DNA of 38,738 nucleotides, taken from positions 1 through 38,738 of the forward strand of contig JAPOWQ010000019.1 in assembly GCA_026707585.1 (NCBI GenBank), in the 5' to 3' direction. Origin of the DNA: Chloroflexota bacterium. Its GTDB lineage: Bacteria; Chloroflexota; UBA11872. The notes below the pieces were generated by a model. The model was not told the DNA's origin. It ran no database searches and saw nothing but the letters and a program-made list of their open reading frames with translations. Position numbers and translations under genes: made by a program. Shown here piece after piece: positions 2,303 to 21,026 of the stretch (position 1 is its first letter; each line of letters begins with the position of its first letter).

Positions 2303-3292
2303 TCATGGTGAGCATGAATCAGGTATCGACTTTAGTGCATCTATAAGCTTTTGAATGAGATGCTCGTCGTTTACCGCATCCCACGTGCTGATCAGCACAT
2401 CAAAGGCTTCCTTCGAAATGTGAATCGGCACCGCAAAACTTGAGCTGCTAGACTCGGCCGACACATCACTAGCTCCGAAGTCCGATGCGATCGATACAGC
2501 ATCGCTTACTGCTTGCCTGTCGGTAGACCCGATTACTTCTCTTAGCAGAGCCGCCGTCGACTCAGAAACCCACAATACAATTGTGTCCTCACCCAGAGGC
2601 TCACTTTGTACTCTAAAATAGTTTACATTCGGATCATTCGGGGGCGGCACATCGAAGTAAGGCTGAATTTTAATGCCTGCACTAGTGGTCACCGAGAATC
2701 TCTTCGACCCTGTCACTCTATCGAAAATCCAAAGGCTCTTGCTCGCCTTCCTGATACCACGAGCTGGCGTCTCATTCCATTCGGCAAAGAACTTTTCAGG
2801 ATTAGGTCGCTCCATCCGTTCTTCAAAGTAAAGGAATTCTTGGAGTTCTGGCTCCCAAAGCAGCCAACCAGTACGCATGTCTGCTCTACCATCCGAACTG
2901 TCACTCTTTACACGTTCTGTGCGTTCTCTAATGAGTTCGGAGTATTGGGTAAGGACATCAGCCATGACGTCCTCGGGAGGGAGGTCAATATCTTCGATGC
3001 GAATCGAACGCGTTGCTGCCGGGTGCATTCGCGAGGTTCCGCAGATCTCTTTGATGGGTCGCCCACGCAGCTGTGAAACGCGGAGCATCTTGAATTCGAC
3101 GCCGAGTCCATCGTGATTCACATCAATATGTAGATTACTCCATCCAGTTTGCGGTATCCCTTTGGCCTCACAGTACACTTCCTGCCAGTCATCCTCCTCT
3201 AATTTACGACCCATCATGGAGGCCACCTTCGCGGCCAAGAGCAACTTCGCGCGACGCGCCTCTTGACTCGTAAACGCCGGCAATGTTGTCAT
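2303..3292 (-). CDS. Putative restriction endonuclease, PD-(D/E)XK type
   Basis: A 329-residue protein I do not recognise by family name. Near residues 57-68 it has an acidic residue, D61, followed by GVEFKM, giving a D-x4-E66-x-K68 arrangement like the catalytic core of PD-(D/E)XK nucleases. Its start overlaps the methyltransferase stop by four bases (ATGA), so the two are translationally coupled, the classic layout of a restriction-modification pair. The C-terminal third has a serine-rich linker (SSSSS, about residue 277) and a helical tail. The nuclease call is inferred from one motif plus context; the recognition site cannot be read from sequence. Base composition is AT-richer than the flanking chromosome. 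Confidence 0.65.
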   Translation of the reverse strand: MTTLPAFTSQEARRAKLLLAAKVASMMGRKLEEDDWQEVYCEAKGIPQTGWSNLHIDVNHDGLGVEFKMLRVSQLRGRPIKEICGTSRMHPAATRSIRIEDIDLPPEDVMADVLTQYSELIRERTERVKSDSSDGRADMRTGWLLWEPELQEFLYFEERMERPNPEKFFAEWNETPARGIRKASKSLWIFDRVTGSKRFSVTTSAGIKIQPYFDVPPPNDPNVNYFRVQSEPLGEDTIVLWVSESTAALLREVIGSTDRQAVSDAVSIASDFGASDVSAESSSSSFAVPIHISKEAFDVLISTWDAVNDEHLIQKLIDALKSIPDSCSP

Positions 3293-5514
3293 CGATTGGT
3301 CTCCAGGACGGTCGTAGCTTCATCTCGAAAGTCAGAAAAACTTACAACCTTAAGGCCATCCCGAATAGCGCACGCTATATAGCGACTATAGAGAGTTCTG
3401 TAGTCGATTTCTGTCTCACGATCCACATGGACAAAAGGAAAAATAGGCAGGCGGTCCGACTCGCTCGTCAAGAATGCTGAAACACTTGCAACTCGCTTTC
3501 GGTCACTATCAACGCCACCTGACGAAGTCTTCTTACAGTGAATCATCAAATCCGCCCCGGCTGCATTCTCGCTTACGAACTGTTTGAACGTACCGTGCTG
3601 CTTGTCAAAGATATTCACGTTTTCCACTGAGAAGCCAGCATCCACGATAGCCCCCCTGAGGGCTTCCCAAACTCGCCTAGACGAATTCATGAACACTAAG
3701 ACCATCCAGTGATTGGCACGCAGAACACGATGCGCTTCCTTCAAGCTGCTAGTCATTAGGCCCCGATAGTCTTCGATGTCTTTTCCCTGATGGCGACTAA
3801 CTATTGCCTCCGTATTTGGATCGGTGAATCTCCCCAGCCAGGACTCCCACAGAAAGTTCATTTCACTGTAGTTAATATTAGAGCCAAATGGCGGATCAGT
3901 GAAAATGAAATCAACCGACTCGTCTGGGAGGAATTCCAATTTCGTTGCGCTACCAGTACGCACACAGTATGTCCCTTGGTACTCCTGCGCAGTGGTAGCA
4001 AAGTGCTTTCGGATCGTCTCTGCCTTTCGCTGAAACGTTAAGAAAACATTAGATTCGTTGAAAATCTGAGGTACATTCAAGTTAGCCATATTTCCACTTC
4101 CGCCCCAAAAGCGATACTCAGACAGTCGAGTGACTCGTTGATACATGGACGTGAAGACAAACCCAAGCGCGCTTGCCATCTCCAGGTCTGCTACTTTCTT
4201 GACTTCCCGCCATAACGCGCCACAGGCTGCTAAGTTTCGGAGTGTATATAGTTTGTCCACTGAGTCGAGGCCATGTCGTTTTGGCTGATTGAGATTAACT
4301 CCATCGGGAATGTCGTTCTTGGGAACGTACGGTAGAACGTCGCTCAGAATACTCTCGGCGGACTCTAACTGCCTATAGTCCCGTTCAATCAGAGGATGTT
4401 CCATTATTTTCTTAGAACAGCATCGATAGCCCAGAAAAACAGGAACGCAGTGCTTCCTGACGAGGTGCGACTTCTTGACTTCATTGCCGCAGCTCGGGCA
4501 AGCGAAGCTATGGAGGATCCGATGCTCGCGAACGCTTTTTCCGTATTTTCGGCAATGTTCCCAAAGGACGAAGTCTTGCTGACAATGGCTGCATTCTAGG
4601 ACGTAAGACCACACAGTATACAATTGGAGGGTGTCTGAACCGCATTCTCTACATGTAGTTGAGTAGAGGCTGTGTTGGAGTTCATGCAGAGTGAGGAGTA
4701 TGTCGGAGACAGTCTGATGGAATATCTCAGGATCGATAGAAGCTAGAAAGTTATATGAAATGAACGACGCAGCTGGGGAAAGTTCGTTGAGAATCACATC
4801 GTATCCGAGATATCGCGCTGCCACTCCAGTCATTCCACTGCCAGCGAACGGATCAAGGACTAAACCACCATTGGGTAGGTACTTGGAGATGACTGTTGCG
4901 ATTCCCTGTGGCGGGACCTTTGTGTGGTAGGTGTGAGCATCGTAGGTATAAGTATTCTTGCCCGCTGAGATATCTTCATCTAGCGGATCCACCTTCGTAT
5001 TTGCAGGATCAGCGTTGCCTTCCAGAATCTTGCCGAGCTGCAATTGACCACCACTCCAGAATGAGTTGTCTGTGAGAACTTCGCCCAGGAGTGAGTCCCT
5101 CGGCTTAGGGAGCATTTGTATGGTGTTCTCTCTGAAGAAAGACGTGCGCCTCAGGCTCTCTGTCTTCACACCGCTCGAGGCGAATGCAATGGGACGACCG
5201 CTAGAGCGGGACGATCGATCGGACGGTTGCGATGACGAATGAAGCAACTCGTTGAGCCGGCGCATGACATCGTCACTCGGCTTTAGGTCGCCCTGTTCCC
5301 ATCGGACTAAGGCATAGAGAGAAGTGTTCAGCGTCCGCGCCAACTCCTGTTGTGATAGACCCAGGTGGGCACGCGCAGAAGTGAACGGATTCTCACCAGT
5401 CGGAAAGAGTGCCTGGACCCACTTGTTGGGCTTAGCCGAACCCGGCGACTTTTCCTCACGCACCCGGTTCAAGTCCGCTATGAGACCGACGCTGTCATTT
5501 GACTTGGAAATCAT
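3289..5514 (-). CDS. HTH-fused DNA methyltransferase (N6-adenine or N4-cytosine) with internal zinc-ribbon-like region
   Basis: The N-terminus holds an XRE-type helix-turn-helix (about residues 50-95: LGLSQQELARTLNTS, then RWEQGD). The SAM-binding motif DPFAGSG is at about 221-227 and the catalytic TDPPFG at about 539-544, roughly 315 residues later, an alpha-like order. Between them lie CxxC pairs (CREC, CSHC, CPSC and a CC) likely to form zinc ribbons and part of the target-recognition region. An in-frame TTG lies at 5532; the ATG at 5514 is preferred but neither has a clear ribosome-binding site. The HTH may autoregulate the operon. Upstream is the P-loop gene, downstream the overlapping nuclease gene. 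Confidence 0.85.
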   Translation of the reverse strand: MISKSNDSVGLIADLNRVREEKSPGSAKPNKWVQALFPTGENPFTSARAHLGLSQQELARTLNTSLYALVRWEQGDLKPSDDVMRRLNELLHSSSQPSDRSSRSSGRPIAFASSGVKTESLRRTSFFRENTIQMLPKPRDSLLGEVLTDNSFWSGGQLQLGKILEGNADPANTKVDPLDEDISAGKNTYTYDAHTYHTKVPPQGIATVISKYLPNGGLVLDPFAGSGMTGVAARYLGYDVILNELSPAASFISYNFLASIDPEIFHQTVSDILLTLHELQHSLYSTTCRECGSDTLQLYTVWSYVLECSHCQQDFVLWEHCRKYGKSVREHRILHSFACPSCGNEVKKSHLVRKHCVPVFLGYRCCSKKIMEHPLIERDYRQLESAESILSDVLPYVPKNDIPDGVNLNQPKRHGLDSVDKLYTLRNLAACGALWREVKKVADLEMASALGFVFTSMYQRVTRLSEYRFWGGSGNMANLNVPQIFNESNVFLTFQRKAETIRKHFATTAQEYQGTYCVRTGSATKLEFLPDESVDFIFTDPPFGSNINYSEMNFLWESWLGRFTDPNTEAIVSRHQGKDIEDYRGLMTSSLKEAHRVLRANHWMVLVFMNSSRRVWEALRGAIVDAGFSVENVNIFDKQHGTFKQFVSENAAGADLMIHCKKTSSGGVDSDRKRVASVSAFLTSESDRLPIFPFVHVDRETEIDYRTLYSRYIACAIRDGLKVVSFSDFRDEATTVLETNR

Positions 5515-5547
5515 TCCTATCGGGGCCGCCAATCCCGGAGGTCATGA

Positions 5548-5586
5548 ATGATGGACTAAGTCCTGATGCGTACATACTACCATCAT
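5548..5586. promoter_or_regulatory. Nested inverted repeats upstream of the HTH-methyltransferase gene
   Basis: GGACTAAGTCC (5553-5563) is an 11-base palindrome. It lies inside a wider inverted repeat, ATGATGG (5548-5554) and CCATCAT (5580-5586). The pair lies 34-72 bases before the ATG of a methyltransferase with its own HTH domain, so it could be the operator for autoregulation, as in C-protein-controlled restriction systems. Position and symmetry are seen; function is inferred. Confidence 0.3.
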
Positions 5587-5633
5587 CTTGACTCGGACCA
5601 GAGAGAGGTAAGCACCTCAGACCCGTCGGACCC

Positions 5634-6164
5634 TTATGTGAAGTCAAACGCATCTGCCAGCAGGAGACCGTTACGCTGCCGACAACGGGCATCAATGCAC
5701 ATAGTTTCACATGAAGAGACTTGGTGGAGAGCCTGAAGTATTGCCGGAGCCGCAGATAGGAGGTTGCCATGTCGGTCGGGAGACAATATGGCAATCCGTA
5801 TTCGTTCTGGAGAAAATCGTTCGTCAAGTGCAACCACAAGGTCACTCAAACTCGGCATGCTGTTGGAAGCATAGATTTGCACTGCACTAGCTACATTCCA
5901 GCGATAATGAACATCCGTGTTCTGTTCTATCTTGTCCAAGAACCTCTCCAAAGACTCCCCTGATTCATGAGGAGACGTGAGACGCAGATACAGTCTCCGA
6001 TAAGGTGAGAGAAGATAAGTGTTTGGAAGATTGCGTTCCTCTGGAATCTTACCACTATTGCCGAGCCGTGGATCTCGGAACATTGATCGCATCTGCACAC
6101 TCTTACCCGTGTTTGGATCTCCAGCAACGAGGAGCACCCTTTCGATGAAGCGCGACCTTGCCAT
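5634..6164 (-). CDS. Small P-loop NTPase-like protein of the restriction-modification operon
   Basis: The 176-residue protein begins with a beta strand and Walker A motif, LLVAGDPNTGKS (about residues 11-22). No clear Walker B is visible; the hydrophobic IRIAILSPD at about 128-136 is a candidate strand. The ATG at 6164 is preferred to one at 6221 because AGAGGAGT precedes it by 7 bases. It is the first gene of a minus-strand run, 100-120 bases ahead of the methyltransferase. I do not recognise a family. By analogy with restriction or anti-phage operons that carry an ATPase it may gate or power the nuclease, but this is inference from context. Confidence 0.6.
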   Translation of the reverse strand: MARSRFIERVLLVAGDPNTGKSVQMRSMFRDPRLGNSGKIPEERNLPNTYLLSPYRRLYLRLTSPHESGESLERFLDKIEQNTDVHYRWNVASAVQIYASNSMPSLSDLVVALDERFSPERIRIAILSPDRHGNLLSAAPAILQALHQVSSCETMCIDARCRQRNGLLLADAFDFT

Positions 6165-6661
6165 TTCTAATACTCCTCTTTCATGCCTAAGGTCGTCTTG
6201 CTTGCAGACACACCCGGGCATTTGATTGATGGCCTATTGCCGACACGTTGATTTGGGAGCCGATACATTTTACTCAGAAAGATGAGTGCGGGCACTTGAG
6301 ATACGAATCAGAAGTAATTAGATTCTATCAATCCGACACAATATTGGCAGAGCAGTCTTCCACCATTACCTTGTCTGGCATTGCCCGGCCTTACTCGCTC
6401 ACCGTTCCTGCATTCAGGGCGCCTATTGTAGACTTGAGAATTCACCGAATACCACCATAAAGTCTCGTCATTATGGTCGTCTCGAGTAGCTATATCTATG
6501 ATCCTCTTGGTACGCAATCGCCGATCCATTTTACATGCGACAAGTGTCATTTGCAATCGGTCAGCTCGCGGAAATAAGATGTGGATGCTGTAGACTGCGG
6601 GGTTTCTCGCTTTGAGGGGGAAATGAGATACGACGAGCTGTCTGGTAGAATGGTCTGTTTT
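6165..6661. other. AT-rich intergenic region between P-loop gene and tRNA-like gene
   Basis: No credible gene on either strand; the open frames present lack coding character. It must hold the promoter of the minus-strand operon, but I see no convincing -35/-10 pair. Confidence 0.45.
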
Positions 6662-6774
6662 GGGGGTGTGGCGGAACTGGTAGACGCGCCAGTTTAGCTT
6701 GCCGACTGAGACTTCAGCCGGCAAGGTAAGCCGGTGATCTTCGGGTCGTGTGGGTTCGAGTCCCACCACCTCCA
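6662..6774 (+). tRNA. tRNA-Leu-like gene with 28-base hairpin inserted in the anticodon region
   Basis: The acceptor arms GGGGGTG (6662-6668) and CACCTCC (6767-6773) pair with one G-U. The D-arm core GGAACTGGTAGACGC is Leu-like, the long variable arm GATC-TTCG-GGTC is intact, and the T-arm is GTGGG-TTCGAGT-CCCAC. CCA is not encoded. The anticodon arm is abnormal: CCAGT (6689-6693) faces GCCGG (6730-6734), with one A-C mismatch, across 36 bases instead of 7. The excess is a 28-base hairpin (6698-6725) with arms CTTGCCG/CGGCAAG plus CTGA/TCAG. TTTAG just before it suggests anticodon UAG, but the anticodon cannot be fixed. It may be a pseudogene, an intron-bearing tRNA or an unusual variant. Confidence 0.6.
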
Positions 6775-6934
6775 CCGGGGCTCGTTTCGAGTTTCCGCTT
6801 TCTCTTGCGCACGTCCGTCAAGTCCGTCACTCGCCTTCCCTCACCGCAGGCAGGAGCTTCTGCAGGCTCTTTCGCGGTCTCCCAGGGCAAGGTAACCTGT
6901 CGGCGACTCTAACTTGGCCAGTTGGGAGATTGAA

Positions 6935-7207
6935 GTGACAACGTCCACGTCAGCCTGCGAGACATTGCACGAAGCCATTCACAGCGTTCTGATTTCCGCC
7001 GACCAGCCGTGTTCGACCACGTACATCTCTGACCAGATAGCACGACGCGGACTATGGGTTCGTCCTAGTGACGGTCAGTTTCCAAATGCCAGTCAGGTCA
7101 GCGCACGTATTGGAAACTATCCCGACTGGTTTAGGCGCATAGGTGAGTCTCGGCGGTACGTCGTCCTGAGTGATTGGATTCTCAACGGACGGTATTCTGA
7201 CAGCTAG
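6935..7207 (+). CDS. Small HARE-HTH-like winged-helix protein
   Basis: A 90-residue protein that resembles one HARE-HTH / winged-helix domain, seen in a segment ending LWVRPSDGQFPNASQ, followed by VSARIGNYPDWFRRIG and a C-terminal strand RYVVL. Such domains are known fused to restriction endonucleases and chromatin proteins and are thought to sense or bind DNA. Here the domain stands alone. The GTG at 6935 is preferred to an upstream TTG at 6914 because GGGAG lies 6 bases before it. It is plus-strand, opposite to the nuclease operon, and shares its AT-richer composition, suggesting it is part of the same imported block. Confidence 0.6.
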   Translation: MTTSTSACETLHEAIHSVLISADQPCSTTYISDQIARRGLWVRPSDGQFPNASQVSARIGNYPDWFRRIGESRRYVVLSDWILNGRYSDS

Positions 7208-7576
7208 CCGAAGTGTTCCGACTTCCGAGCATCCACTCACCTGAGTGTCGCGCTTCGGCTGCCTAGCTCTGCATCACCAGGTAGTCCTGACCGGACTCCA
7301 CCGCCAAAGCCCTTCCGGCCGCACCGCCCCATAGCAGTCATACAGCCAGCAACTCTACTCCTTGACGGCCTAACTGCCCGCATCGAGCGGCTACTCAGAG
7401 GTCGGTCGATGCTCCCGTTGCTGCATCACTACGTCGGTTGTGACGCGTGGCTTCTCAAGCAACGACTTCATCCTCGGCAGATGCTTTAACCCACTCGCTT
7501 CTCCGAGATTCAGCCTTCAGCGGATATTTTCGAGATTAGGAGCGGAAGATGTTCGACAGCACTTTCAGTCACACAA
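7208..7576. other. Intergenic gap inside the island
   Basis: No supportable gene, RNA or strong hairpin was found between the convergent HARE-HTH-like and FRG genes. Confidence 0.45.
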
Positions 7577-8509
7577 TCAAACGTCATATAGCTTGAGCAT
7601 ATCTGCAAGAAAGTTAGAGTTCATTTCTTGAATACTGCCTGTCACTCGGCCTCCAATTGTGCCTACGACCTTAAGTCCAAGCGGGAACCAATACATAGCC
7701 TGATTCGCGTACATTGCAGCCCCCTGTGCGTCAGGAAACACGGTTGCAGAATGTATGTTCATACGATCGAGATCTGAAAGTGCGAGATTTGCTTCATTCG
7801 CGGACGGGCATGGAACTGTGTACTTGCATAGGCCTTGAGCAAGTTGCCTTGATTCCAAATAGCTCTCGAGATCAGTGTATTTGCTGTGGTCGAGATGCGT
7901 GAATGATCCAAGCTGGATGCGCTGTCTGTGAAACTCATAGTTGGAGTTGGAAACGTAGTTGAACTCGCCTTTTCTTGGCAGCTTATGATATACGTGAAGT
8001 CTCCAAACAGCAATAGGTTCATCTGATGTCATTGAAGGTGGTCGTTCGGGCAGATTAGACTTGGAGAGAAGCCGGTCTTGTAGCGCGAAGAAGGCCGCGA
8101 TGAATGGACTCTGAGACCAGTCGAGCAAAGGTGTAATCAATCCAAAGTGCCTGCCGAAGGCCCACCAATCCTGCCTAGTATTGAGCATGTCTATGGGCAT
8201 TCCGGGCATGCCTTTGACTTGTTCCTTGAATACCGATAGGAATAAGTCGTCCTTTGAAGTGTCTTCAATTGGTCCAAAGATCTTTCTGGCGTCGGCTTGA
8301 GGATGCACTCTCTTGTAATGGTCGCATAAACGCTCCCAGGGCGACGAGAGTTTCCACTGATGATTTGAATGTCCACGATAGAGGGTGCCGACTCCAGGTC
8401 GGTTGGCTTCTAACAGTCTCAGTTGCTGGATGAAGTCATCCCAGGATTTGCATTGAATCTCTAGTGCGCCAGAAGAACGGGAGCGAATGTTCGGCAAGGC
8501 AATAGACAT
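7577..8509 (-). CDS. FRG-domain protein
   Basis: The FRG signature is visible near residues 38-55 (GTLYRGHSNHQWKLSS), followed by the family's second block, GLITPLLDWSQSPFIAAFFA, with the DW and AA positions expected. FRG proteins are of unknown biochemical function but recur in defence islands. Length is 310 residues from the ATG at 8509; a GTG at 8521 is an alternative, and neither has a strong ribosome-binding site. There is no obvious partner on the same strand. Composition is AT-richer than the chromosome to the right. A solitary defence-associated effector is plausible; this is inference. Confidence 0.8.
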   Translation of the reverse strand: MSIALPNIRSRSSGALEIQCKSWDDFIQQLRLLEANRPGVGTLYRGHSNHQWKLSSPWERLCDHYKRVHPQADARKIFGPIEDTSKDDLFLSVFKEQVKGMPGMPIDMLNTRQDWWAFGRHFGLITPLLDWSQSPFIAAFFALQDRLLSKSNLPERPPSMTSDEPIAVWRLHVYHKLPRKGEFNYVSNSNYEFHRQRIQLGSFTHLDHSKYTDLESYLESRQLAQGLCKYTVPCPSANEANLALSDLDRMNIHSATVFPDAQGAAMYANQAMYWFPLGLKVVGTIGGRVTGSIQEMNSNFLADMLKLYDV

Positions 8510-8521
8510 TCGAGGACGCAC

Positions 8522-9148
8522 TTTCGGAGAGTGATCCGAAATGGTGGAACAATGCTTCAGCGATAAGGGTAACTGAAGCGGGAGCCTTCCGTTCGCGCCA
8601 CCATTCTCCCCTTACCACGTAACCCGCCAGGGAATCGACCGCCTCGCCCCCTCGCCCGACCCCCCAAACCGGTCATCCAGCCAGCCCCACAACCCCTTGA
8701 TCGCCTGACCGTCCGCGTCCATCGGCTCTTCCGAACCCGCCCAATCCTCCCGCGCCCCCCGCCACAGCCCCCGCCAGCACCGACACCCAACCACCAGCAA
8801 GCCACCCAACCTGAACGCCCGGTCTTAATCCCTCTCCTGGGGGAGAGGGTTGGGGTGAGGGGTCCTCCGGGCACCCAACCCCAAGCCACCTCGATTCCCG
8901 TCCCGCAACACCACCCGCTCCAGCCGCAACCCCCCGATGCGCTCACGAGCGTTACTGACCGCCTTGCCTCGAGGGCTAGACTGTGAGCGTGCGACCGACC
9001 GCCGAGCGCAGCGACCAAGCGGCGTCGGTGGATCGGGCGCTGGAGCCGAGCGTCGACCACGGGGCGGAAGGCACGGCGCACGCATCGCCTGCATCCCGGC
9101 CGGCAACGCGCTGGCCGCGGGATACAGGCTGGCCGGAAAGGACCGGGA
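8522..9148. other. Repeat-bearing gap at the right edge of the island
   Basis: Composition returns to GC-rich at about 8.6 kb. A family B repeat lies at 8823-8880. The stretch 8880-8960 resembles 10418-10500; on the minus strand both read as the end of a coding frame (IGRVRWHEVLMQDGMEVA and a stop in the second copy), suggesting duplicated gene-end debris. A minus-strand frame at 8612-8809 has mildly coding-like composition but no recognised domain. Confidence 0.45.
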
Positions 9149-9427
9149 ATGATTGTCAACGTCAAAGCCAGGTACGCCGACGGCGTGCTCACGCCCCTGG
9201 AGCCGCTCCACCTGGACGAAGGCACAGAGGTCGTAGTTTCGATTGAGGACTATCGGGGTGCGGTCAGTGACGCGCCGTCCTCAGGCAAGGGCGAGGAGTC
9301 AATCCCGCAAATGTTCGAGAGGCTCAGGGACTCTGTTCCCCCCGAAACGTGGGACGACCTCCCCACCGACTTGGCCAGGAACAAGAAGCACTACCTCTAC
9401 GGCCATCCCAGGGAAGAAGAAGAGTGA
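9149..9427 (+). CDS. AF2212-like (DUF104) antitoxin
   Basis: The 92-residue protein opens with the diagnostic pattern VKARYADGVLTPLEPLHLDE then GTEVVVSIED, matching the DUF104/AF2212-like antitoxin family. A purine-rich ribosome-binding stretch (GGAAAGGACC) precedes the ATG. The usual partner is a VapC-like PIN ribonuclease encoded immediately downstream, and a PIN gene start does overlap the stop here (GTGA at 9424-9427), but that toxin gene is broken. The antitoxin therefore looks like an orphan of a decayed toxin-antitoxin pair. Confidence 0.85.
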   Translation: MIVNVKARYADGVLTPLEPLHLDEGTEVVVSIEDYRGAVSDAPSSGKGEESIPQMFERLRDSVPPETWDDLPTDLARNKKHYLYGHPREEEE

Positions 9428-9922
9428 GCGTCGTCTTCGCCGACTCGGGCTACTGGATAGCGTTGTGGAACCTACGAGATGCACTCCACCGGCGGTCCAT
9501 GGCCGCTGCTGACGGAATCGACTGCCTCAGCTCTTGCTCCTTCTCACTTGAGGGAGAAGGTTGGGATGAGCGTGGCTGCCGCCCCTGGCACCCACGTCCA
9601 ATTAGCAGCAACCCACGACACCCTTAACGCCAGTCTTAATCCCTCTCCTGGGGGAGAGGGTTAGAGCCTGCCCCGGACTCGATCCGGGGGTGAGGGGTCT
9701 TCCGGGCAACTACCCCCGGGTTTCGCGAAATCCTCTCAGAAAGACATCCAGTTCAGGGCCGCCGTAATCCGATACGCGTCTCGCCCTGACCAGAGCTGGA
9801 GCCTCACCGACTGCGCCAGCTTTCTTGTCAGGGAAGAGCGGAACATAACCGACGCGCTGTCCTACGACCGGGACTTCGAACAGGCAGGCTTCCGAGCCCT
9901 GCTCAGAGAAAACCGGGCCTAG
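9424..9922 (+). pseudogene. VapC-like PIN toxin gene split by repeat sequence
   Basis: The first codons give SVVFADSGYWIALWNLRDAL, a standard PIN-domain N-terminus with its first catalytic Asp. At about 9510 the reading continues into hairpin-repeat sequence and stops at about 9627. PIN homology resumes at about 9728-9922 in a different frame: RPDQSWSLTDCASFLV then ITDALSYDRDFEQAGFRALL and a stop, containing the C-terminal catalytic Asp residues. About 65-70 residues of the middle are missing and replaced by roughly 235 bases of repeats. The toxin must be inactive unless another copy exists. Confidence 0.8.
9510..9735. repeat. Hairpin-repeat insertion within the PIN toxin gene
   Basis: Two family B-like copies, CTTGAGGGAGAAGG (about 9546) and CTCTCCTGGGGGAGAGGG (about 9642), with spacer and a GGGTGAGGGGTCTTCC tail near 9690. 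It replaces the middle of the toxin gene, showing that these repeats invade coding sequence and are not only intergenic. Confidence 0.7.
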
Positions 9923-9939
9923 CACCAACCCTCGCCTTA

Positions 9940-11220
9940 AGAGACCTCTGCAAAACGTTCTTTGACCTCGAAGGCATGGCGCCGGTCTTCACCCTCTCCA
10001 AGGGGAGAGGCAGACTCGGGCGTCTGCGGCCGAAATCGGTGAGGGGTCCCCTCCCCTCCAGCCGGCTCCCCTCTTCAGCCCTCTCCGTGGAGACCTCTGC
10101 AAAACCCCGCCTCGATTTCGAAATCGGGGCCGCTCTTGCTCCCTCTCCCCGTGGGAGAGGGTTGGGGTGAGGGTCTTCCGCGCACCCACCCTCGGGTTAC
10201 GCAAACGTCTCTCCTGAGGGAAAGGGTTGGGGTGAGGGGTCTTCTCCTCTCTAGCAACTCCCTCTTCACCCTCTCCGAGGGGAGAGGCAGCCTCCGGCGT
10301 AATCGCCGGAATGCGGTGAGGGGTCTTCATCTTCTCCGACTCCCCGCTTCACCCTCTCCGAGGGGAGAGGCAGATTCGGGCGTCTTCGGCCGAAATCGGT
10401 GAGGGGTCCTCCGGGCACCCAACCTCAAGCCACCTCCATCCCGTCCTGCATCAGAACCTCGTGCCACCGCACACGCCCGATGCATTGACGAGGCGTCGAT
10501 GAAACAGGCGCTCGAGGCGTACCGGCGTGCGCGCGCTAGTAAGCTCTCTATGCAGGCAGTTTGACAAGCGTGCGAGCGCAGGCAACGTGGAACTCTTTGC
10601 ATCCATATTCGCGATCACCCTGATGTCGCTCGGGCTCATCGCCTTCATCGTGGCAGTCGACGGCATGCTCGGCTTCATCCCGCCGCCGCCCCGTTGGAGC
10701 GGCCATCGACGCCGGACCGGAGACCGCGTCTAACCACGCGCCGCCTGAGTGAATCAGCAAAACGTCCCCGCTGGCTGGATCTTCCTTGCCCTGCTAGCCG
10801 CCGCTCTTCCCCCCTCTCCCCGTGGGAGAGGGTTGGGGTGAGGGTCTTCCGGGCAACCAGCCTGGGGTTACGCAAAGGTCTCTCCGAGGGGAGAGGCAGA
10901 AGCCGTCCGCGGCCTTCGGTGAGGGGTCCCCGTCCCCTCCAGCCGGCTCCCCTCTTCACCCTCTCCAAGGGGAGAGGCAGGTTCGGGCGTCCGCGGCCGA
11001 AACCGGTGAGGGGTCCCCTCCCCTCCGACTCCCCGCTTTACCCTCTCCTGGGGGAGAGGCAGAAGCCGTCCGCGGCACTCGGTGAGGGGTCTTCCGTTCC
11101 TGCCGCCACCCCGCGCACCCATGCCGAGCCAGCCGTAACTCCACCTGGCGAAGGCTGATCTTCTCCCCTCTCCCCGTGGGAGAGGGCTAGGGTGAGGGTC
11201 TTCCGCGCAACCAACCCGAA
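9940..11220. repeat. Dense array of hairpin repeats
   Basis: Family A copies lie at about 9988-10050, 10262-10330, 10348-10415, 10885-10930, 10960-11020 and 11036-11098. Family B copies (CTCCCCGTGGGAGAGGG then TGAGGGTCTTCC) lie at about 10131-10190, 10205-10245, 10802-10855 and 11160-11215. A further short motif, GAGACCTCTGCAAAAC, occurs at about 9940 and 10089. Family A's hairpin tips vary while arms keep pairing (for example CGGCC/GGCCG), so structure appears conserved. No firm gene lies in this stretch. Confidence 0.8.
10587..10733 (+). CDS. Possible 48-residue membrane peptide
   Basis: From a GTG at 10587 the frame encodes one strongly hydrophobic helix (ASIFAITLMSLGLIAFIVAV) followed by a proline-rich basic tail. 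The ribosome-binding site is weak and the ORF sits between repeats, so it may be a relic. I do not recognise it. Confidence 0.3.
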   Translation: MELFASIFAITLMSLGLIAFIVAVDGMLGFIPPPPRWSGHRRRTGDRV

Positions 11221-12730: not shown

Positions 12731-15700
12731 TCAGGCCGCCAAGCGTGGTTCCGGGTTTCCGGCGGCACGAGCGGCCGCGAGGCCCGGCTCGCTGGGAGCG
12801 CCGGCAGACCGGGATGGGTAGCCCTGCGGGTGGGCGAAGAGGGTGGCGGCGGCGCTGAGAATCCAGAAGTAGGCGGCCAGTTCGGGGAGGAAGTAGGCGT
12901 GGTCGACCAGTCCGTGGATCAAGGCCGCGGTCATCGCGCCGGCCAGGCCGAAGGCCAGCGGATCGGATCGGCCGTCAGCCATGCGGCGAGCACAGGCCCA
13001 GTCCCGCCAGAAGAGGACGAGAAGGCCCACGAGGGCCACCAGCCCAACCACGCCCAACGAGACCCAGGCATCCAACAACAGGTTGTGGGGGTGGGAAATG
13101 TTCGGCTCGCGCCAGGCCTCGGGCCGCATGAAAGCGCGGTAGTGCGTGAGAAAGTTGTCCGGGCCCACGCCAAACAGCCAGTTGTCGCGGCCCATCCGCC
13201 AGGCGGCGTCCCAAATCGCCAGACGTGAGACGGCCCCGCTGTCGCCGACGCGCAGCAACTGCCCGATACGCTCGGCGCCGGTAACCGGGACGACGGCGAC
13301 CAGCGCCACGAGCGGCAGGGCAACGGCGGCGACGCGCCGACCCGGGCGCGCCTGCGCCCAGAGCGGACGCGACGCGACGGCCAGTCCGAGCAGCGCCCCC
13401 AGCCATGCGCCGCGGCTCCAGGTGAGGATCAGGACGGCGCCCAGCCCCAGCAGGGCCAGCCCCCAGAGCGCACGCGCACTCGCAACCCGCCCCAGGCCCC
13501 AGCAACACCGCCCGCTGACAAATGTGCTCGCGCCCGCGGCCAGCGCCAGGCCCAGGGCCACCGGGGCGGCGCGTTCCAGTACGAGGGCCAGGTTGTTGGG
13601 CGACCCGAAGGTGCCGCGCAAACGCGGCGGAAAGACTTCCGTGACGACCGCGCCGAAGGGGATGAGGGCGAGCGCCGTGAGGGCCACCAGCACCGCGCCC
13701 ACCACGAGCGCGGCCAGCAAGCGGCGGGCGTCGCGGCGGTCACGCAGAACCGAGGCGAGCACAACGAAAAACGCGGCAGGCTCCAGGATGACGGTGCGCA
13801 GGTCGCGCAACGCGAACTTGGGAAAGTCGGCCAAGCCGGCCGCGACAATGCCCGCCGCGGCAAAAACGACGGCCGCGGCCAGCCAGCGACGGGGCGGAAG
13901 GCGGGGCGGCCCGCACCAGAAGGCGCGAGCGATCCAGGCGGCGACGACCGCCAGGATGAGGACTTCGCCCACGGGACGATCGATGAGGCCGGTGCGTCCA
14001 ATGACGCCCACGAAAGGCACGGCGGCCACGGCGACCAGAGCGGCGTAACGGAGCCGGGCCAGGGCCATCAGGCCGATGGCGAGCGCCAGCAGGATTCGAA
14101 CCAAGGTCCAGACCGAGAGCGGCCCGCCGGCGGGAAGCGCGGCGTAGAGCAGCGCGGCGAGCGCCAGGAGCAGTTCGCCGAGGCGCAGGGGGCCGACGCG
14201 GCGGTCCATCCAGCTCCAGGAAACCGACGCGAGGGCGAGCTGCGCTGGACGCCAGCCGCGGGCCGTCCCCAGTGCCAGCGCCCCGACGGCCGCCCAGACG
14301 GCGGCCAGGGCCAGCCAGGGCCAAACGGGACGGGCGTTGCCGACCAGGAAGCCGTCCACGATCACCAGGCCGCCGGTGGAGGCCGGGTTGGATTCCGCCA
14401 CGACCGTGAGTTCGAGGGTATGCAGACCGGGCGGCAGTCGGGTGGCGATGGGAATGCGCGCGAGGGGTTGGACGCTGGGGGCGTAGAGATCGAGGATCGC
14501 CTCGCCGGCGGGATTGCGGGGGAGAGCGTCGGCCAGGGCGTCCTGCCCGTCGATCCGGGCCAGCACGCGACCCATGTCCGGCCCGCGGCGGGTCAGCAGG
14601 CCCACGTCGGCGCCCTGGAAGGTGAAGGTGACGTTTGCGCCGGCCACGCCGGTCTGGCGCTGAAGGGTGAGGGAGGCCAGATCGCTCGGCACGCGCGGCC
14701 AGGGGCCCCGGTAGCTGGCCGCCAGGTGCGATTCCTGGTGCAGACCAACGCCCGCCGCCGGCGACCCGGCGAAGGCCTTTGCGACCGCCTGGAGATTGGG
14801 ACGCGGGGTAAAGTCCTTGTCCATGAGCCGGAAGTAGGGTGTGGGGTCGCGCGGACCCAGGTCCTCGGGCCAGCGGGAGGCCCAGATGACGATGGTGGGC
14901 ATCCAGGACCACTGGTCGCGGGCGCGCCGGATGCCGTCGACGGTCCAGGCGGCTTGCACGTCGATGGGGTGGTTGCCCCAGATGCCCGGGTCGCCGGCCC
15001 AGCCGGGTGGGAGCGACATCCAGCCGTACTCGGTTGCCCAGACGGGAGTTTGCGCGTCGCCGAACTCAAGCATTGCCTCGCGCCAGAGGACGGCGCGTGG
15101 GAAGTTGACGCGCTGGTCGTCGATGCGAATGTCGCGGGGACCGGTCCACAGCCCGTAGGACATGGTGGCGGCGACATCAAAGTCGCCGCGGGCGCCGAGC
15201 TGGTAGAGGTTGCGGAGGAAGAGAAGATCGCTGAGGTTTTCGGGGCCGGTCTCGATGGTGGGCGCCAGCCCGGCCAGGACGATGCGGGCGTCGGGATCGG
15301 CGGCCCGGATGGCCTGCCCGACCGTGCGCAGCATGGCCAGGTAGTCGGCGGGATCTGGCGGGCGGCCGCCCCACTCGCCGAAGAGGTTGGGTTCGTTCCA
15401 GACCTGGTAGTAGCGGACCTTGCCGCGATAGCGAGTCGCCAATTGTCGGGCAAAGCGCGCGAACTCGGCGTTGTCGGCCGGGGGCGCCTGCATCCAGGGG
15501 TTGGCGCGGGGATCGAAGCCGGGCGTGGCCCAGACCGGGGCGCGGTCGAGGCGCGCCAGGATCTGGATCCCGGCATCGCGTGCGGCGTTCACAATGTGGT
15601 CGTACTTGATCCAGGCGTCGCGGCCGAGGTCGGGGTGCTGGTCGGGGTCGAGCGGTTCGAACTCCGCCCAATTGAACTCCTGGCGGATGAGGGTGACGCC

Positions 15701-15931
15701 GGCGGCGCGCAGGACGGCCAGCTCCCGGCGGACTTTGGCCGGATCGGGTTCGCGGTGCAGAAAGGTATTGGCGCCGATGGCGGGGGAGTCCGCGTCTCGA
15801 AGTTCGCCCAGATCAGCGGTGCCGTAGGTCACGCCGCGATCCAGCAGGGACATGAGCCCCAGCGCGCCCACGGTGACGACGGCCGCCACCGCGACAGCCG
15901 CCGGCAGCAGCCAGCCGCGCCGCGGTTGCAA
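12731..15931 (-). CDS. Glycoside hydrolase (clan A-like) fused to O-antigen ligase/polymerase-like membrane domain
   Basis: From the TTG at 15931 (GAGGCG upstream) the protein has about 1066 residues. A signal anchor (10-30) is followed by a TIM-barrel glycosidase domain with acid/base Glu in YYQVWNEPN (E180) and nucleophile Glu in VWATEYGW (E301). A beta-rich linker domain (about 430-590) precedes about 12 membrane helices containing the Wzy/ligase region: RLAIWDAAWRMGRDNWLFGV then SHPHNLLLDAW near the C-terminus. The start is uncertain, since the frame stays open into the preceding gene. The upstream gene is a stand-alone paralogue of the glycosidase domain. A role in exopolysaccharide processing coupled to transfer or polymerisation is inferred. 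Confidence 0.8.
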   Translation of the reverse strand: MQPRRGWLLPAAVAVAAVVTVGALGLMSLLDRGVTYGTADLGELRDADSPAIGANTFLHREPDPAKVRRELAVLRAAGVTLIRQEFNWAEFEPLDPDQHPDLGRDAWIKYDHIVNAARDAGIQILARLDRAPVWATPGFDPRANPWMQAPPADNAEFARFARQLATRYRGKVRYYQVWNEPNLFGEWGGRPPDPADYLAMLRTVGQAIRAADPDARIVLAGLAPTIETGPENLSDLLFLRNLYQLGARGDFDVAATMSYGLWTGPRDIRIDDQRVNFPRAVLWREAMLEFGDAQTPVWATEYGWMSLPPGWAGDPGIWGNHPIDVQAAWTVDGIRRARDQWSWMPTIVIWASRWPEDLGPRDPTPYFRLMDKDFTPRPNLQAVAKAFAGSPAAGVGLHQESHLAASYRGPWPRVPSDLASLTLQRQTGVAGANVTFTFQGADVGLLTRRGPDMGRVLARIDGQDALADALPRNPAGEAILDLYAPSVQPLARIPIATRLPPGLHTLELTVVAESNPASTGGLVIVDGFLVGNARPVWPWLALAAVWAAVGALALGTARGWRPAQLALASVSWSWMDRRVGPLRLGELLLALAALLYAALPAGGPLSVWTLVRILLALAIGLMALARLRYAALVAVAAVPFVGVIGRTGLIDRPVGEVLILAVVAAWIARAFWCGPPRLPPRRWLAAAVVFAAAGIVAAGLADFPKFALRDLRTVILEPAAFFVVLASVLRDRRDARRLLAALVVGAVLVALTALALIPFGAVVTEVFPPRLRGTFGSPNNLALVLERAAPVALGLALAAGASTFVSGRCCWGLGRVASARALWGLALLGLGAVLILTWSRGAWLGALLGLAVASRPLWAQARPGRRVAAVALPLVALVAVVPVTGAERIGQLLRVGDSGAVSRLAIWDAAWRMGRDNWLFGVGPDNFLTHYRAFMRPEAWREPNISHPHNLLLDAWVSLGVVGLVALVGLLVLFWRDWACARRMADGRSDPLAFGLAGAMTAALIHGLVDHAYFLPELAAYFWILSAAATLFAHPQGYPSRSAGAPSEPGLAAARAAGNPEPRLAA

Positions 15932-15950
15932 CAGGCGCCTCAGATTCGGC

Positions 15951-17108
15951 CTAGGGGAAGGAGGCGCCGGTGGCGGCGCGTTGCACGGCGCGGTAGACGA
16001 GCCGCGGGGTAAAGTCCGGTTCGACCATGCGGAAGTAGTACTCGCTCTCGTCGGGCTGCAGGGCTTCGAGTGGCTTGCGGAAAAACCAGAGATTGAAGAC
16101 CCCGGCCCAGGGCCAGCGGGTGAGGGCATAGCGGACGCCTTCGACGGTCCACTCGGCCTGGGTCTCCTCCGGCACCCGTCGCCAGACCAGCTTGGCGGGG
16201 TTCATGTCTGCCGGCGAGGCGTTCCAGCCGTACTCGTTGAACCAGATGGGGCGGTTGCGCAGGCCGAACTCCAGCATGAGTTCTCGTACAAACTCGACGC
16301 GCCGGAAGTTCAACACATTGGGATCGGGCGGCGCATCGGGCGGATGCTCAAGGCCAAAGGCGTTGGCCGCCTGAACGTCCAGGTGGTCGCCGGCGCCCGC
16401 CTCGTAGAGCCGGCGCAGGTATTGCAGCTCATCCATGGCGCGCGGGCTGTTTTCCAGCGTGGCGGCCATGGGCGCGGCAATGACCACGTTGTCTTCGTCC
16501 ACGCTCTTGATAGCCCGATTGGCCACGCCGAGCAGCCGGGCGTAAGCCTCGGGTTGCGGCGGCGCGCCGCCCCATTCGTGGGCGAGGTTCGGCTCGTTCC
16601 AAACCTGGTAGTGGCGCACGCGCCCGCGGAAGCGGGTGGCGAAGGTCGACAGGAAGCGCCCATAGTCCACGTAGTTCGTGGGCGGGGTGGTGGGGTGCGG
16701 CTTGTTCACCCGGGCCCAGGCTGGCGCGCGGTCGATCCGGGCAATGATCTCGACTCCCGCTTCTTCCGCCAGGTCCACGATTTCGTCGTACTTGTCCCAG
16801 GTCGAGCGACGGGCCGCCGCATCAAAGTACTGCCCTCGCGCGGGCGTCTCGATGTCGGCCCAGGGCGCGTGCTGCTTGATCCAGCGGATTCCGGCGTCCC
16901 TCACCATTTCCAGTGTTTGGCGTCGCTTCCAGGTCTCAACTTCCAGGTCAAGGAAGGTGTTGGCCCCCCAGGGCCAGACGTTCGCGAGGGCAATAGGACT
17001 GGACTGGGTTCGCCGCACGGTCGAATCTCCGCAGGCACTCACGGCCGCCAGTGCGGCGGCGCCGGCCCCCCCGACCAACACGGCTCGTCGCCCGATGGCC
17101 CGGGTCAT
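15951..17108 (-). CDS. Lipoprotein glycoside hydrolase (clan A-like)
   Basis: The N-terminus has RR followed by a hydrophobic stretch and a lipobox ending AAVSAC (Cys26), so the protein is probably exported, possibly by Tat, and lipid-anchored. The 385-residue body is a TIM-barrel glycosidase with acid/base Glu172 in HYQVWNEPN and nucleophile Glu292 in WFNEYGW, like GH39/GH5-type enzymes. It is clearly paralogous to the N-terminal half of the next gene (shared GANTFL, WNEPN, EYGW, DFTPR). Its ATG overlaps the stop of the TIM-barrel isomerase gene (ATGA), indicating coupling. The substrate cannot be read; a polymer related to the Wzy product is plausible. Confidence 0.82.
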   Translation of the reverse strand: MTRAIGRRAVLVGGAGAAALAAVSACGDSTVRRTQSSPIALANVWPWGANTFLDLEVETWKRRQTLEMVRDAGIRWIKQHAPWADIETPARGQYFDAAARRSTWDKYDEIVDLAEEAGVEIIARIDRAPAWARVNKPHPTTPPTNYVDYGRFLSTFATRFRGRVRHYQVWNEPNLAHEWGGAPPQPEAYARLLGVANRAIKSVDEDNVVIAAPMAATLENSPRAMDELQYLRRLYEAGAGDHLDVQAANAFGLEHPPDAPPDPNVLNFRRVEFVRELMLEFGLRNRPIWFNEYGWNASPADMNPAKLVWRRVPEETQAEWTVEGVRYALTRWPWAGVFNLWFFRKPLEALQPDESEYYFRMVEPDFTPRLVYRAVQRAATGASFP

Positions 17109-17977
17109 ATCAATTCCGCTTCGAGTTCGAACCCGAGCCCGACCAGGTAGTCACGTGAGATTTGGACGCTAGCCGACGGATCGCGGCCCGGTTGGTCGTG
17201 ACCGACTGTCAACCAACCATCGAATCCACGCTCGCGCAACAGCGCAACCACGCCCTCCACGTCGACATCGCCCTGGCCCAACTCCAGGAAGCCGCCGGCT
17301 TCCCAGAACTGCTCCAGCGAGCCCTTCGCCCAGATGTGCTGTTCGTGCAGATCCGCATCCAGGTCTTTCAGGGTCACATAGGCAATGCGCTCGAAATACC
17401 TGCGGACGAATTCGAGCGGATCCAAGTCCGCGTAGGCGAGGTAGCCAATGTCCGGCGCCAGGCGCAGGTTGTCGGGGTCCGTCATGCCGATGAGCTGATC
17501 CAATTCGTCGCCGGTCTCGACGTAGGAGCCGAGCTGGTTACGAAAGAGCAGCGGGAGTTCGAAATCCCGCTGGGTGATGTAGGCCGCCCTGGTCAGTGAA
17601 TCCGCCATCTGTGTCCACTGGTAATCCAATAACCCTTCCTGACGCTGACGGGTGACGTGACCGGCCGTGAGCATCCGCTCCGGCACGGGCCGGGACGACG
17701 TTATCAAGAACCGTGCGCCGACATCGGCAAAGAACTCGGCGGCCCGCTGGAGCTGATCGAACTCGATCTCCTGGTACATGTCGGCGAACCAGTTGGCGAA
17801 GAAGCGTCCGGCCGTGACTTCCAGGTCGGCGTCGGCCAACACGCGTCGAGCCAGGGGCACGTTGCCGGCCAAATCGCCCACGCCCTCAATGCCGGCGTAG
17901 CCGGCGTCGCGCGCCTCCTCCGCAACCTGCTGAAACGGAGCGCCGCCCCAGATGGTGGAGGTGACGGCGACGCGCAC
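17105..17977 (-). CDS. Sugar phosphate isomerase/epimerase-like TIM barrel
   Basis: The 290-residue protein matches the xylose isomerase-like / IolE family: ATST-like N-terminal strand (VAVTSTIWGG), central LAPDIGYLAYADLDP, then VTLKDLD and LELGQGDVDVEGVV at the C-terminal metal-binding side. These supply the expected Glu/Asp/His ligands. The GTG start directly follows the stop of the NYN gene (TAAGTG). Downstream it overlaps the glycosidase lipoprotein. Likely isomerises or dehydrates a sugar or inositol derivative; the substrate is unknown. Confidence 0.8.
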   Translation of the reverse strand: MRVAVTSTIWGGAPFQQVAEEARDAGYAGIEGVGDLAGNVPLARRVLADADLEVTAGRFFANWFADMYQEIEFDQLQRAAEFFADVGARFLITSSRPVPERMLTAGHVTRQRQEGLLDYQWTQMADSLTRAAYITQRDFELPLLFRNQLGSYVETGDELDQLIGMTDPDNLRLAPDIGYLAYADLDPLEFVRRYFERIAYVTLKDLDADLHEQHIWAKGSLEQFWEAGGFLELGQGDVDVEGVVALLRERGFDGWLTVGHDQPGRDPSASVQISRDYLVGLGFELEAELI

Positions 17978-18790
17978 TTAGCCCTCGTCGGCTGCAGCTC
18001 GCACGGCCCGCCCGCTCAGGTTCTCCTGCGGAAGCACTCTCGGGGTGGCTTGGTCCGGCACGCCGCTAGCGGGTTCGGAAGGTTCGCCGGGCGCAGCCGC
18101 CGAGCCAGCTTCGGCGGCCGGCCCGGCAACCGGCGGGCTTGCGTCCCCGGCGCCTTCCGAAGAGTCGGCCGCCGGCGCGGCCGATTGCGCTTCGCTGTCG
18201 GACCTCCCTGAGGACCGTCGACGGGACCGTCGCCGCGGCGGCGGGTCCAGCCGCGGTCGAGCGTTGCCGCGCTCCGTTGGCAAGTCGCGCCGGCCTTGGC
18301 CTTCGGACCTCACGGACTGAAGGAGGCCGGCGAATTCGACGACTTCATCGGCGGCCTCAATGAGCGCCGGCGGCGCCAGTTCGCGGCTGGTGATCACCTC
18401 CACGCGCACGCCGTGCCGCTGGACGGCTTCGATCAGAACGGCCAAGTCGGCGTCGGTGGTAAGCAAGCTCAGCGCGTCAAGGTGAGGGGCGAGTTCCAAG
18501 GCGTCCACGGCAATGTTCACGCCCAGGCTTGCCCGCCGCACCCCGTCGGCACGGCGCCGCAGCGGCTTGGCAATAACCTTGAAGCCCTCAGCAGCCAAAC
18601 CGGCCAGGCGCTGCTCGGTGTCGGGTCGGTCGTCGTCACGCGCGCCGTAGGCGACGGCGCGCAGCAGCCGGCGGCTTTGGATCAGTTGCTCGCGCAACCG
18701 CCCGGGCGCGACGCGCACGCCGTGATGGCCGGCCATCACGTCCAGCGAGGCCAAATCAAGGAGCAGCGCGGTGCGGGGAGGAACCTCCAT
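17978..18790 (-). CDS. NYN-domain (PIN-like) protein with disordered tail
   Basis: The first about 165 residues fit a LabA-like NYN nuclease fold: LLLDLASLDV at the N-terminus, a basic middle, then VNIAVDALELAP and LLTTDADLAVLIEAVQRHGV carrying the acidic residues. The remaining about 100 residues are Arg-, Ser-, Ala- and Pro-rich and probably disordered, perhaps RNA-binding. NYN proteins are putative metal-dependent RNases. It is one of three in the window. It lies between the M50 protease and the isomerase in a minus-strand run. Confidence 0.75.
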   Translation of the reverse strand: MEVPPRTALLLDLASLDVMAGHHGVRVAPGRLREQLIQSRRLLRAVAYGARDDDRPDTEQRLAGLAAEGFKVIAKPLRRRADGVRRASLGVNIAVDALELAPHLDALSLLTTDADLAVLIEAVQRHGVRVEVITSRELAPPALIEAADEVVEFAGLLQSVRSEGQGRRDLPTERGNARPRLDPPPRRRSRRRSSGRSDSEAQSAAPAADSSEGAGDASPPVAGPAAEAGSAAAPGEPSEPASGVPDQATPRVLPQENLSGRAVRAAADEG

Positions 18791-20276: not shown

Positions 20277-21026
20277 TCACACCCTGGCCGCCGCGCGCGT
20301 TCTGCGCCGCGACCCGTTCGACGAATTCACATGCAGGCTGGTGGCCGTTGACAGGTCAAACCAGTCGTTGGCCGCGACCCGCAGGTCTTCGGACATGGCA
20401 TCTGCGAACGAGTACGCCTCGACCCGCAGGCCGTGTTCGCGCAGGTAGTCCACCATCGGCACGTAGTCCCCGTCGCCCGACACCAACGCCACCACGTCCA
20501 TGGTGGGCAGGCGCCGGATCACGTCCATCACCAGCACGATATCGAGGTCGGCCTTGCGCGTGCCATCAGCAAACACCTTGATCGCCTTGGTCACGATGTC
20601 GTAGCCCTTCTCCCACACGGGCGCCACGGACCGCTGATGCTCCAGTCGCCCGGCGAAGTCAGCATAGATCGGACAGTACGCCCGCGCGTGAATCAGGCGC
20701 CGATCCGAGGTCACCTCGTCCAGCAGCTTCTTGAAGTTAATGCGGATTGGATCGTCGGGATCCCGGTCGCTCACATTGGCGGTATCCACAAACACGCCCA
20801 GCCGCAACTGCGGCCCGGTGTTGGCCGAGGCTCCCTGGTCCCGCAGCGCGCCCGCCATCCGCGTCAACTCGCGCGCCGAATTCGCCAGCGCCCGTTCGCC
20901 CGGCCGCTCCTTTGAGATCACGTCCTTCAACTCATCCAGCAGCATCCGCAGGTCCTGGCCGTCCGGCGCCGCCGAGTCGCCCATGTCCAGGTCAATGTCT
21001 TCGGGAATCGCCGATACCCGCCGCAT
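20277..21026 (-). CDS. LabA/NYN-domain protein
   Basis: A 249-residue protein: about 70 residues of helical leader, then the NYN core with RLGVFVDTANVSD, KADLDIVLVMDVIRR and VVALVSGDGDYVPMVDYLR, giving the conserved acidic residues of this PIN-like nuclease superfamily. The C-terminal part (GLRVEAYSF) completes the fold. Its ATG shares a base with the preceding stop (TGATG), so it is coupled to the coiled-coil gene. The likely activity is RNA cleavage; the target is unknown. Confidence 0.85.
   Translation of the reverse strand: MRRVSAIPEDIDLDMGDSAAPDGQDLRMLLDELKDVISKERPGERALANSARELTRMAGALRDQGASANTGPQLRLGVFVDTANVSDRDPDDPIRINFKKLLDEVTSDRRLIHARAYCPIYADFAGRLEHQRSVAPVWEKGYDIVTKAIKVFADGTRKADLDIVLVMDVIRRLPTMDVVALVSGDGDYVPMVDYLREHGLRVEAYSFADAMSEDLRVAANDWFDLSTATSLHVNSSNGSRRRTRAAARV

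Follow-up and report, generated by a model that had tools for sequence, protein, structure and literature searches.

In a Chloroflexota MAG we identified a gene that joins a glycosidase resembling PslG of Pseudomonas aeruginosa to a membrane domain of the Wzy/WaaL type, directly preceded, in the direction of transcription, by a gene for a lipoprotein form of the same glycosidase. The two parts are truly joined, and the fusion is ancient and widely distributed. Its parts are members of known superfamilies, and no description of the glycosidase-Wzy architecture was found in the open-access literature; the text of a 2025 review on Wzy contains neither the word "hydrolase" nor the word "glycosidase". 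We think it probable, though well short of certain, that the fusion is a polymerase or ligase for an undecaprenyl-linked surface glycan, and that it carries on the outer face of the membrane a tethered PslG-like glycosidase which sets the length of the chain or releases it. Below, the window is the whole stretch of DNA analyzed (38,738 nucleotides of contig JAPOWQ010000019.1), and positions are counted from its first nucleotide. The relatives named are mostly MAGs as well.

Architecture of the fusion protein

The mechanical open reading frame (12731..16129, minus strand) has 1132 codons and no internal stops. Because its leading 66 codons overlap the upstream gene in a different frame, and because in the relative L021 a stop codon stands immediately before the position matching the TTG at 15931, this TTG was preferred as the likely start. 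It has GAGG 6 bases on its 5' side, and 19 nt separate it from the TAG that ends the upstream gene. In the resulting protein an N-terminal anchor is followed by a PslG-like barrel, a beta-sandwich and a Wzy/WaaL-type membrane domain with about 500 residues of membrane helices. Residue numbers refer to the 1066-residue form.

12731..15931, minus strand: fusion protein, 1066 aa, TTG start at 15931, stop at 12731
15839..15919, minus strand: N-terminal signal-anchor helix, residues 5-31 (hydropathy; helix in the model)
14759..15778, minus strand: PslG-like (GH39/clan A) TIM barrel, residues 52-391 (sequence, profile and fold matches)
15392..15394, minus strand: predicted acid/base Glu180 in WNEPN (motif; aligned to PslG)
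15029..15031, minus strand: predicted nucleophile Glu301 in TEYGW (motif)
14336..14758, minus strand: beta-sandwich between barrel and membrane part, residues 392-532 (strands in the model)
12833..14323, minus strand: Wzy/WaaL-type membrane domain, residues 537-1033 (models; WaaL 7tpg best match)
13031..13456, minus strand: Wzy_C core, PF04932 (Pfam)
13085..13093, minus strand: His947-Pro-His949 within the (S/N/A)H(P/A)HN loop, which is conserved (lines up with LEHAHND in WaaL)

The anchor helix is preceded by QPRRG, and the barrel is therefore predicted to lie outside the membrane. Structure prediction gave a confident full-length model (single model, pLDDT 86.7, pTM 0.80). The beta-sandwich has weak Pfam CE2_N matches in proteins of relatives.

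Searched against the PDB, the N-terminal half matched PslG at 1.3e-10 with a single sequence (phmmer) and at 8.5e-28 with a profile, and PslG was also the top fold match of the barrel (Foldseek rank 1). At the curated threshold of Pfam Glyco_hydro_39 no match was reported for the fusion, and only one of 34 fusions matches this family at E<0.001. Since the curated cut-off is not reached, we call the barrel PslG-like and do not file it as a GH39 member. It fits best a predicted PslG-like retaining endo-beta-glycosidase.

The membrane half scored 77.7 bits with Pfam Wzy_C (cut-off 31.7). Modeled separately it reached a pLDDT of 88.8 and a pTM of 0.89, and the sole significant PDB match of this model was WaaL 7tpg (Foldseek 2.1e-07, TM 0.52/0.62), to which the profile search likewise led (7.4e-19). 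In an alignment of 34 diverse fusions, Arg712, Arg770, Arg787, Arg903, His947, His949, His1006 and Asp1010 are invariant (34/34). The membrane half is thus predicted to be a polymerase or a ligase, two activities that its sequence does not separate. A first-pass annotation, made from the DNA alone, had placed a clan A glycosidase with both catalytic glutamates and a Wzy/WaaL-type domain in one polypeptide between 12731 and 17108. The match to PslG, the Wzy_C score, the open frame and the two residues Glu180 and Glu301 bear this out, and the outer coordinates are correct.

The stand-alone glycosidase

Upstream of the fusion lie a second glycosidase gene and an IolE-like gene, the latter present directly upstream of the stand-alone glycosidase throughout the window's order.

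15951..17108, minus strand: stand-alone PslG-like glycosidase, 385 aa, lacking the beta-sandwich and the Wzy part (ORF list, PDB search, alignment)
17031..17108, minus strand: Tat-type lipoprotein signal, GRRAVLVGG...AVSAC, Cys26 (sequence)
16593..16595, minus strand: Glu172 in WNEPN (alignment)
16233..16235, minus strand: Glu292 in FNEYGW (alignment)
17105..17977, minus strand: gene of the IolE-like sugar isomerase/dehydratase fold (Pfam and other evidence), overlapping the start of the stand-alone glycosidase gene by 4 nt

The stand-alone enzyme is 42% identical to the fused barrel over 342 aa (6e-76), and its best PDB sequence match is also PslG; with Pfam Glyco_hydro_39 it scored 14.1 bits, below the cut-off of 26. 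Its N-terminus, with twin arginines and a lipobox (RR...AVSAC), is kept in relatives. The adjoining gene had been annotated as a lipoprotein version of the same glycosidase, and these features, together with Glu172 and Glu292, agree with that assignment. The pair did not arise by a recent tandem duplication, as fused and free glycosidases form separate old branches of the tree.

Occurrence of fused and split forms

A single match covering at least 85% of the fusion profile was found in 51 of 400 Chloroflexota genomes, distributed over 16 families and in 48 cases free of internal stops; these counts are lower bounds, as two candidates were scored per genome. The best loci among related genomes were all fused (29/29), as were 48 of the 80 loci from the genome collection. 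Domain order and junction are conserved in the alignment of the fusions.

Split forms also occur. Eight genomes of Thermomicrobia/Chloroflexia type (eight named loci) encode the glycosidase and Wzy as separate genes, which adjoin in some (L159, L160). Locus L096 is split and collinear: glycosidase, glycosidase, Wzy, epimerase, second Wzy, LPG_synthase_TM and GT4 genes follow one another, and the Wzy gene overlaps the second of the two glycosidase genes by 8 nt. In the distant relatives L059 and L069 the fusion belongs to a similar glycan-assembly operon, again with genes for an epimerase, a second Wzy, LPG_synthase_TM and GT4. These operons, encoding GT4, an epimerase and a flippase-like protein, are the context that would fit a Wzy polymerase. 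A tree in which the fused barrels were constrained to one clade was rejected (p-AU 0.0098). Because the tree has long branches and a weak central fork, both one fusion followed by fission and several fusions are possible.

Several related loci deserve mention. L015 and L042 (G012:C60) have one fused open reading frame of 1299 aa in which the glycosidase segment is partly present twice in tandem, which may be a duplication introduced by the assembly. L050 (JAJDUK010000074.1), a fusion sharing 60% identity with the query, comes from a MAG labelled Alphaproteobacteria and is probably mis-binned Chloroflexota sequence. In Anaerolineae-type loci (L075:9770-13812, L081:9710-14043 and L085:9686-14147), free genes for a glycosidase plus beta-sandwich directly adjoin, or overlap with, the gene of a GT-C membrane glycosyltransferase of PMT_2 type. 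Chloroflexota may therefore pair PslG-like enzymes with membrane glycosyltransferases of several kinds.

Variation of the catalytic dyad

Both glutamates are present in 36 of 50 fused barrels, including every one examined from the genus, family and class to which the window belongs. The other 14 are altered (nucleophile lost in 13, acid/base in 1), a share that is probably underestimated, since the pattern of the contig scan contained the nucleophile Glu and so favors intact copies. With fused and free barrels taken together and scored as two states, the tree requires at least four changes between intact and altered. Cutting is thus not a constant function of the fused barrel. Among free two-domain forms 34/34 keep both glutamates, a count for which the same scan favored intact nucleophiles and in which one member is a truncated copy of the window's fusion frame (L002).

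Where the fused barrel is altered, 13 of the 14 genomes have in addition a free paralogue in which both glutamates are intact; for the remaining one (L068), no intact free paralogue was found among the loci checked. The reverse is seen in one related genus (L017, L044, L048), where the free copy lacks the nucleophile and the fused copy is intact. This looks like shared labor, in which the capacity to cut is kept somewhere and the fused barrel is retained even when it is predicted to be unable to cut. The arginines and histidines of the Wzy domain are invariant in the 34 fusions, whereas the nucleophile of the barrel varies. The constant role of the barrel may be to hold the chain, with cutting divided between the two proteins.

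Genomic context

LpxC and Omp85 were not found in the window's genome (95.6% complete; controls positive). LPS ligation is therefore unlikely, and the probable substrate of the Wzy domain is a glycan linked to undecaprenyl. Accordingly, the earlier label "O-antigen ligase-like" holds for the WaaL-type fold and motifs but is misleading here as to an O-antigen role.

In the window's order the fusion lies outside any glycan operon, and its neighbors are IolE-like, NYN, M50-CBS, CobW and PolA genes. The tail of second Wzy, LPG_synthase_TM and GT4 is present in the window's genome on another contig (C28). The NYN-domain genes (predicted ribonucleases; 17978-18790 and 20277-21026) are close to each other and to the M50-CBS protease gene, and the order of these genes and the glycosidase genes is kept in the genus.

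Proposed function and alternatives

PslG is a retaining endo-beta-glucosidase (PMC11912335), and full synthesis of Psl requires both its association with the inner membrane and its hydrolytic activity (PMC6813494); an earlier study, as cited in that paper, saw no role of PslG in Psl synthesis under overexpression. Wzy_C domains go with the formation of beta linkages (PMC12502699), which is consistent with a partner that cuts them. In cyclic beta-1,2-glucan synthase, the phosphorylase part, a GH-type domain, controls chain length and binds the chain (PMC10901819). A role in length setting or holding is proposed here by analogy with PslG, and the glucan synthase serves as a precedent that parallels the altered barrels.

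For a surface-glycan polymerase or ligase with a tethered glycosidase, the following steps can be envisaged. The Wzy domain would join repeat units or transfer a chain by means of the invariant Arg/His residues of the WaaL superfamily, and the emerging chain would be held by the barrel and the beta-sandwich. The barrel would then cut a beta linkage, probably one made by the polymerase, so that chain length is set or the polymer is freed from its carrier. The lipoprotein paralogue might cut the same polymer slightly farther off, in clean-up or release. Where the fused nucleophile is missing, the barrel may keep a chain-binding or ruler role and leave cutting to the free paralogue. The domain identities, catalytic residues, topology signals, conservation and gene context are observations; from them we infer the substrate, the linkage, the direction of action and the division of labor. 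A more specific version, which we put forward tentatively, is a self-editing polymerase: the barrel would cut the exact linkage that its own Wzy domain forms, acting as ruler and release factor, and lineages without the nucleophile would have passed cutting to the free copy. Such a device would so far be confined to Chloroflexota and close relatives.

Somewhat unlikely, yet the best of the alternatives, is that the barrel serves the polymerase chiefly as a ruler or scaffold that holds the chain, its catalysis being vestigial or incidental and the free lipoprotein doing the cutting. The altered dyads (14/50, at least four changes) argue for this, as the fold is kept and the Wzy residues never vary, and so does the GH94-type domain of cyclic glucan synthase, whose inactivation matters little and whose removal is detrimental (PMC10901819). 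However, both glutamates are kept throughout the examined fusions of the window's genus, family and class, and in the genus of L017, L044 and L048 it is the free copy that lost the nucleophile.

Trimming a polymer and transferring it in one step, as the first-pass annotation suggested, is a plausible inference. In its explicit form, the barrel would be a retaining transglycosidase that transfers the chain it has cut to a new acceptor, such as the cell wall, a protein or a different lipid-linked chain, and the Wzy domain would be a ligase. Clan A enzymes are expected to retain, the nearest solved structure, WaaL, is a ligase, and the second Wzy_C protein of related operons could polymerize and leave ligation to the fusion. 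We regard this explicit form as improbable nonetheless: nothing points to an acceptor, the ligase might just as well be the second Wzy, and transfer by the barrel is inapplicable to fusions without a nucleophile.

An assembly or sequencing error joining separate genes, which the first-pass annotation had named as what would refute it, or passive read-through without functional coupling, would agree with the split versions of Thermomicrobia-like genomes but is very hard to reconcile with the recurrence of this frame in about 50 of the 400 genomes, which belong to 16 families and were in many cases assembled independently, with the conserved domain order and junction, and with the confident single model.

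Comparison with known systems

PslG, a GH39 enzyme of Psl synthesis and biofilm, is the best match of both glycosidases, shares their WNEPN acid/base motif and likewise works at the membrane as part of a system for polysaccharide synthesis (PMC6813494). It is, however, separate from the polymerase, whereas here one relative is covalently joined and the second is a Tat-type lipoprotein, and some fused members of the group, unlike PslG, have lost the dyad. WaaL O-antigen ligase and the Wzy polymerases (PF04932) resemble the membrane half in Wzy_C score, the 7tpg match and the conserved Arg and His; the fusion differs by about 530 extra N-terminal residues (glycosidase and beta-sandwich) and by a genome in which no LPS machinery is seen. 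Cyclic beta-1,2-glucan synthase (GT84 + GH94) also combines a polymerizing membrane enzyme and a GH-type domain in one polypeptide, but its domains are unrelated, its soluble domains are cytoplasmic, it acts by phosphorolysis and not hydrolysis, and its substrate is UDP-Glc. PelA, BcsZ and AlgL are, like the fused barrel, degrading enzymes within a synthesis machine (PMC9894940, PMC6813494), but they are not joined to the polymerase.

It is still debated why operons for extracellular polysaccharide synthesis include genes for enzymes that break the product down, and published results on PslG disagree. A natural covalent fusion of glycosidase and polymerase suggests that both act in the same place and on the same chain, and could help to explain such built-in cutters; as a one-gene system, it allows each half to be mutated separately. 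It also offers a clue to the function of large proteins of Chloroflexota in which Pfam recognizes only an O-antigen ligase-like part (Wzy_C in 34/34, glycosidase families in few). The surface glycans of this phylum are little studied.

Other features of the window and its relatives

In a sister genus (L023, L024), the Wzy domain of the fusion contains in-frame insertions (around residues 780-887 of L023) reading APSPLVGEGGGEG... These resemble the PHPNPLPQERG / SPLSPWERVGVRV peptides from dispersed repeats at about 8557-11158 of the window. It seems that a dispersed repeat was inserted in frame into coding sequence in these genomes. The region 2303-8521 of the window has a low GC content (~51% vs 65-72%) and contains genes for an HTH-bearing DNA methylase similar to an anti-phage DUF1156 protein and for an FRG-domain protein; it is probably a mobile or defense island.
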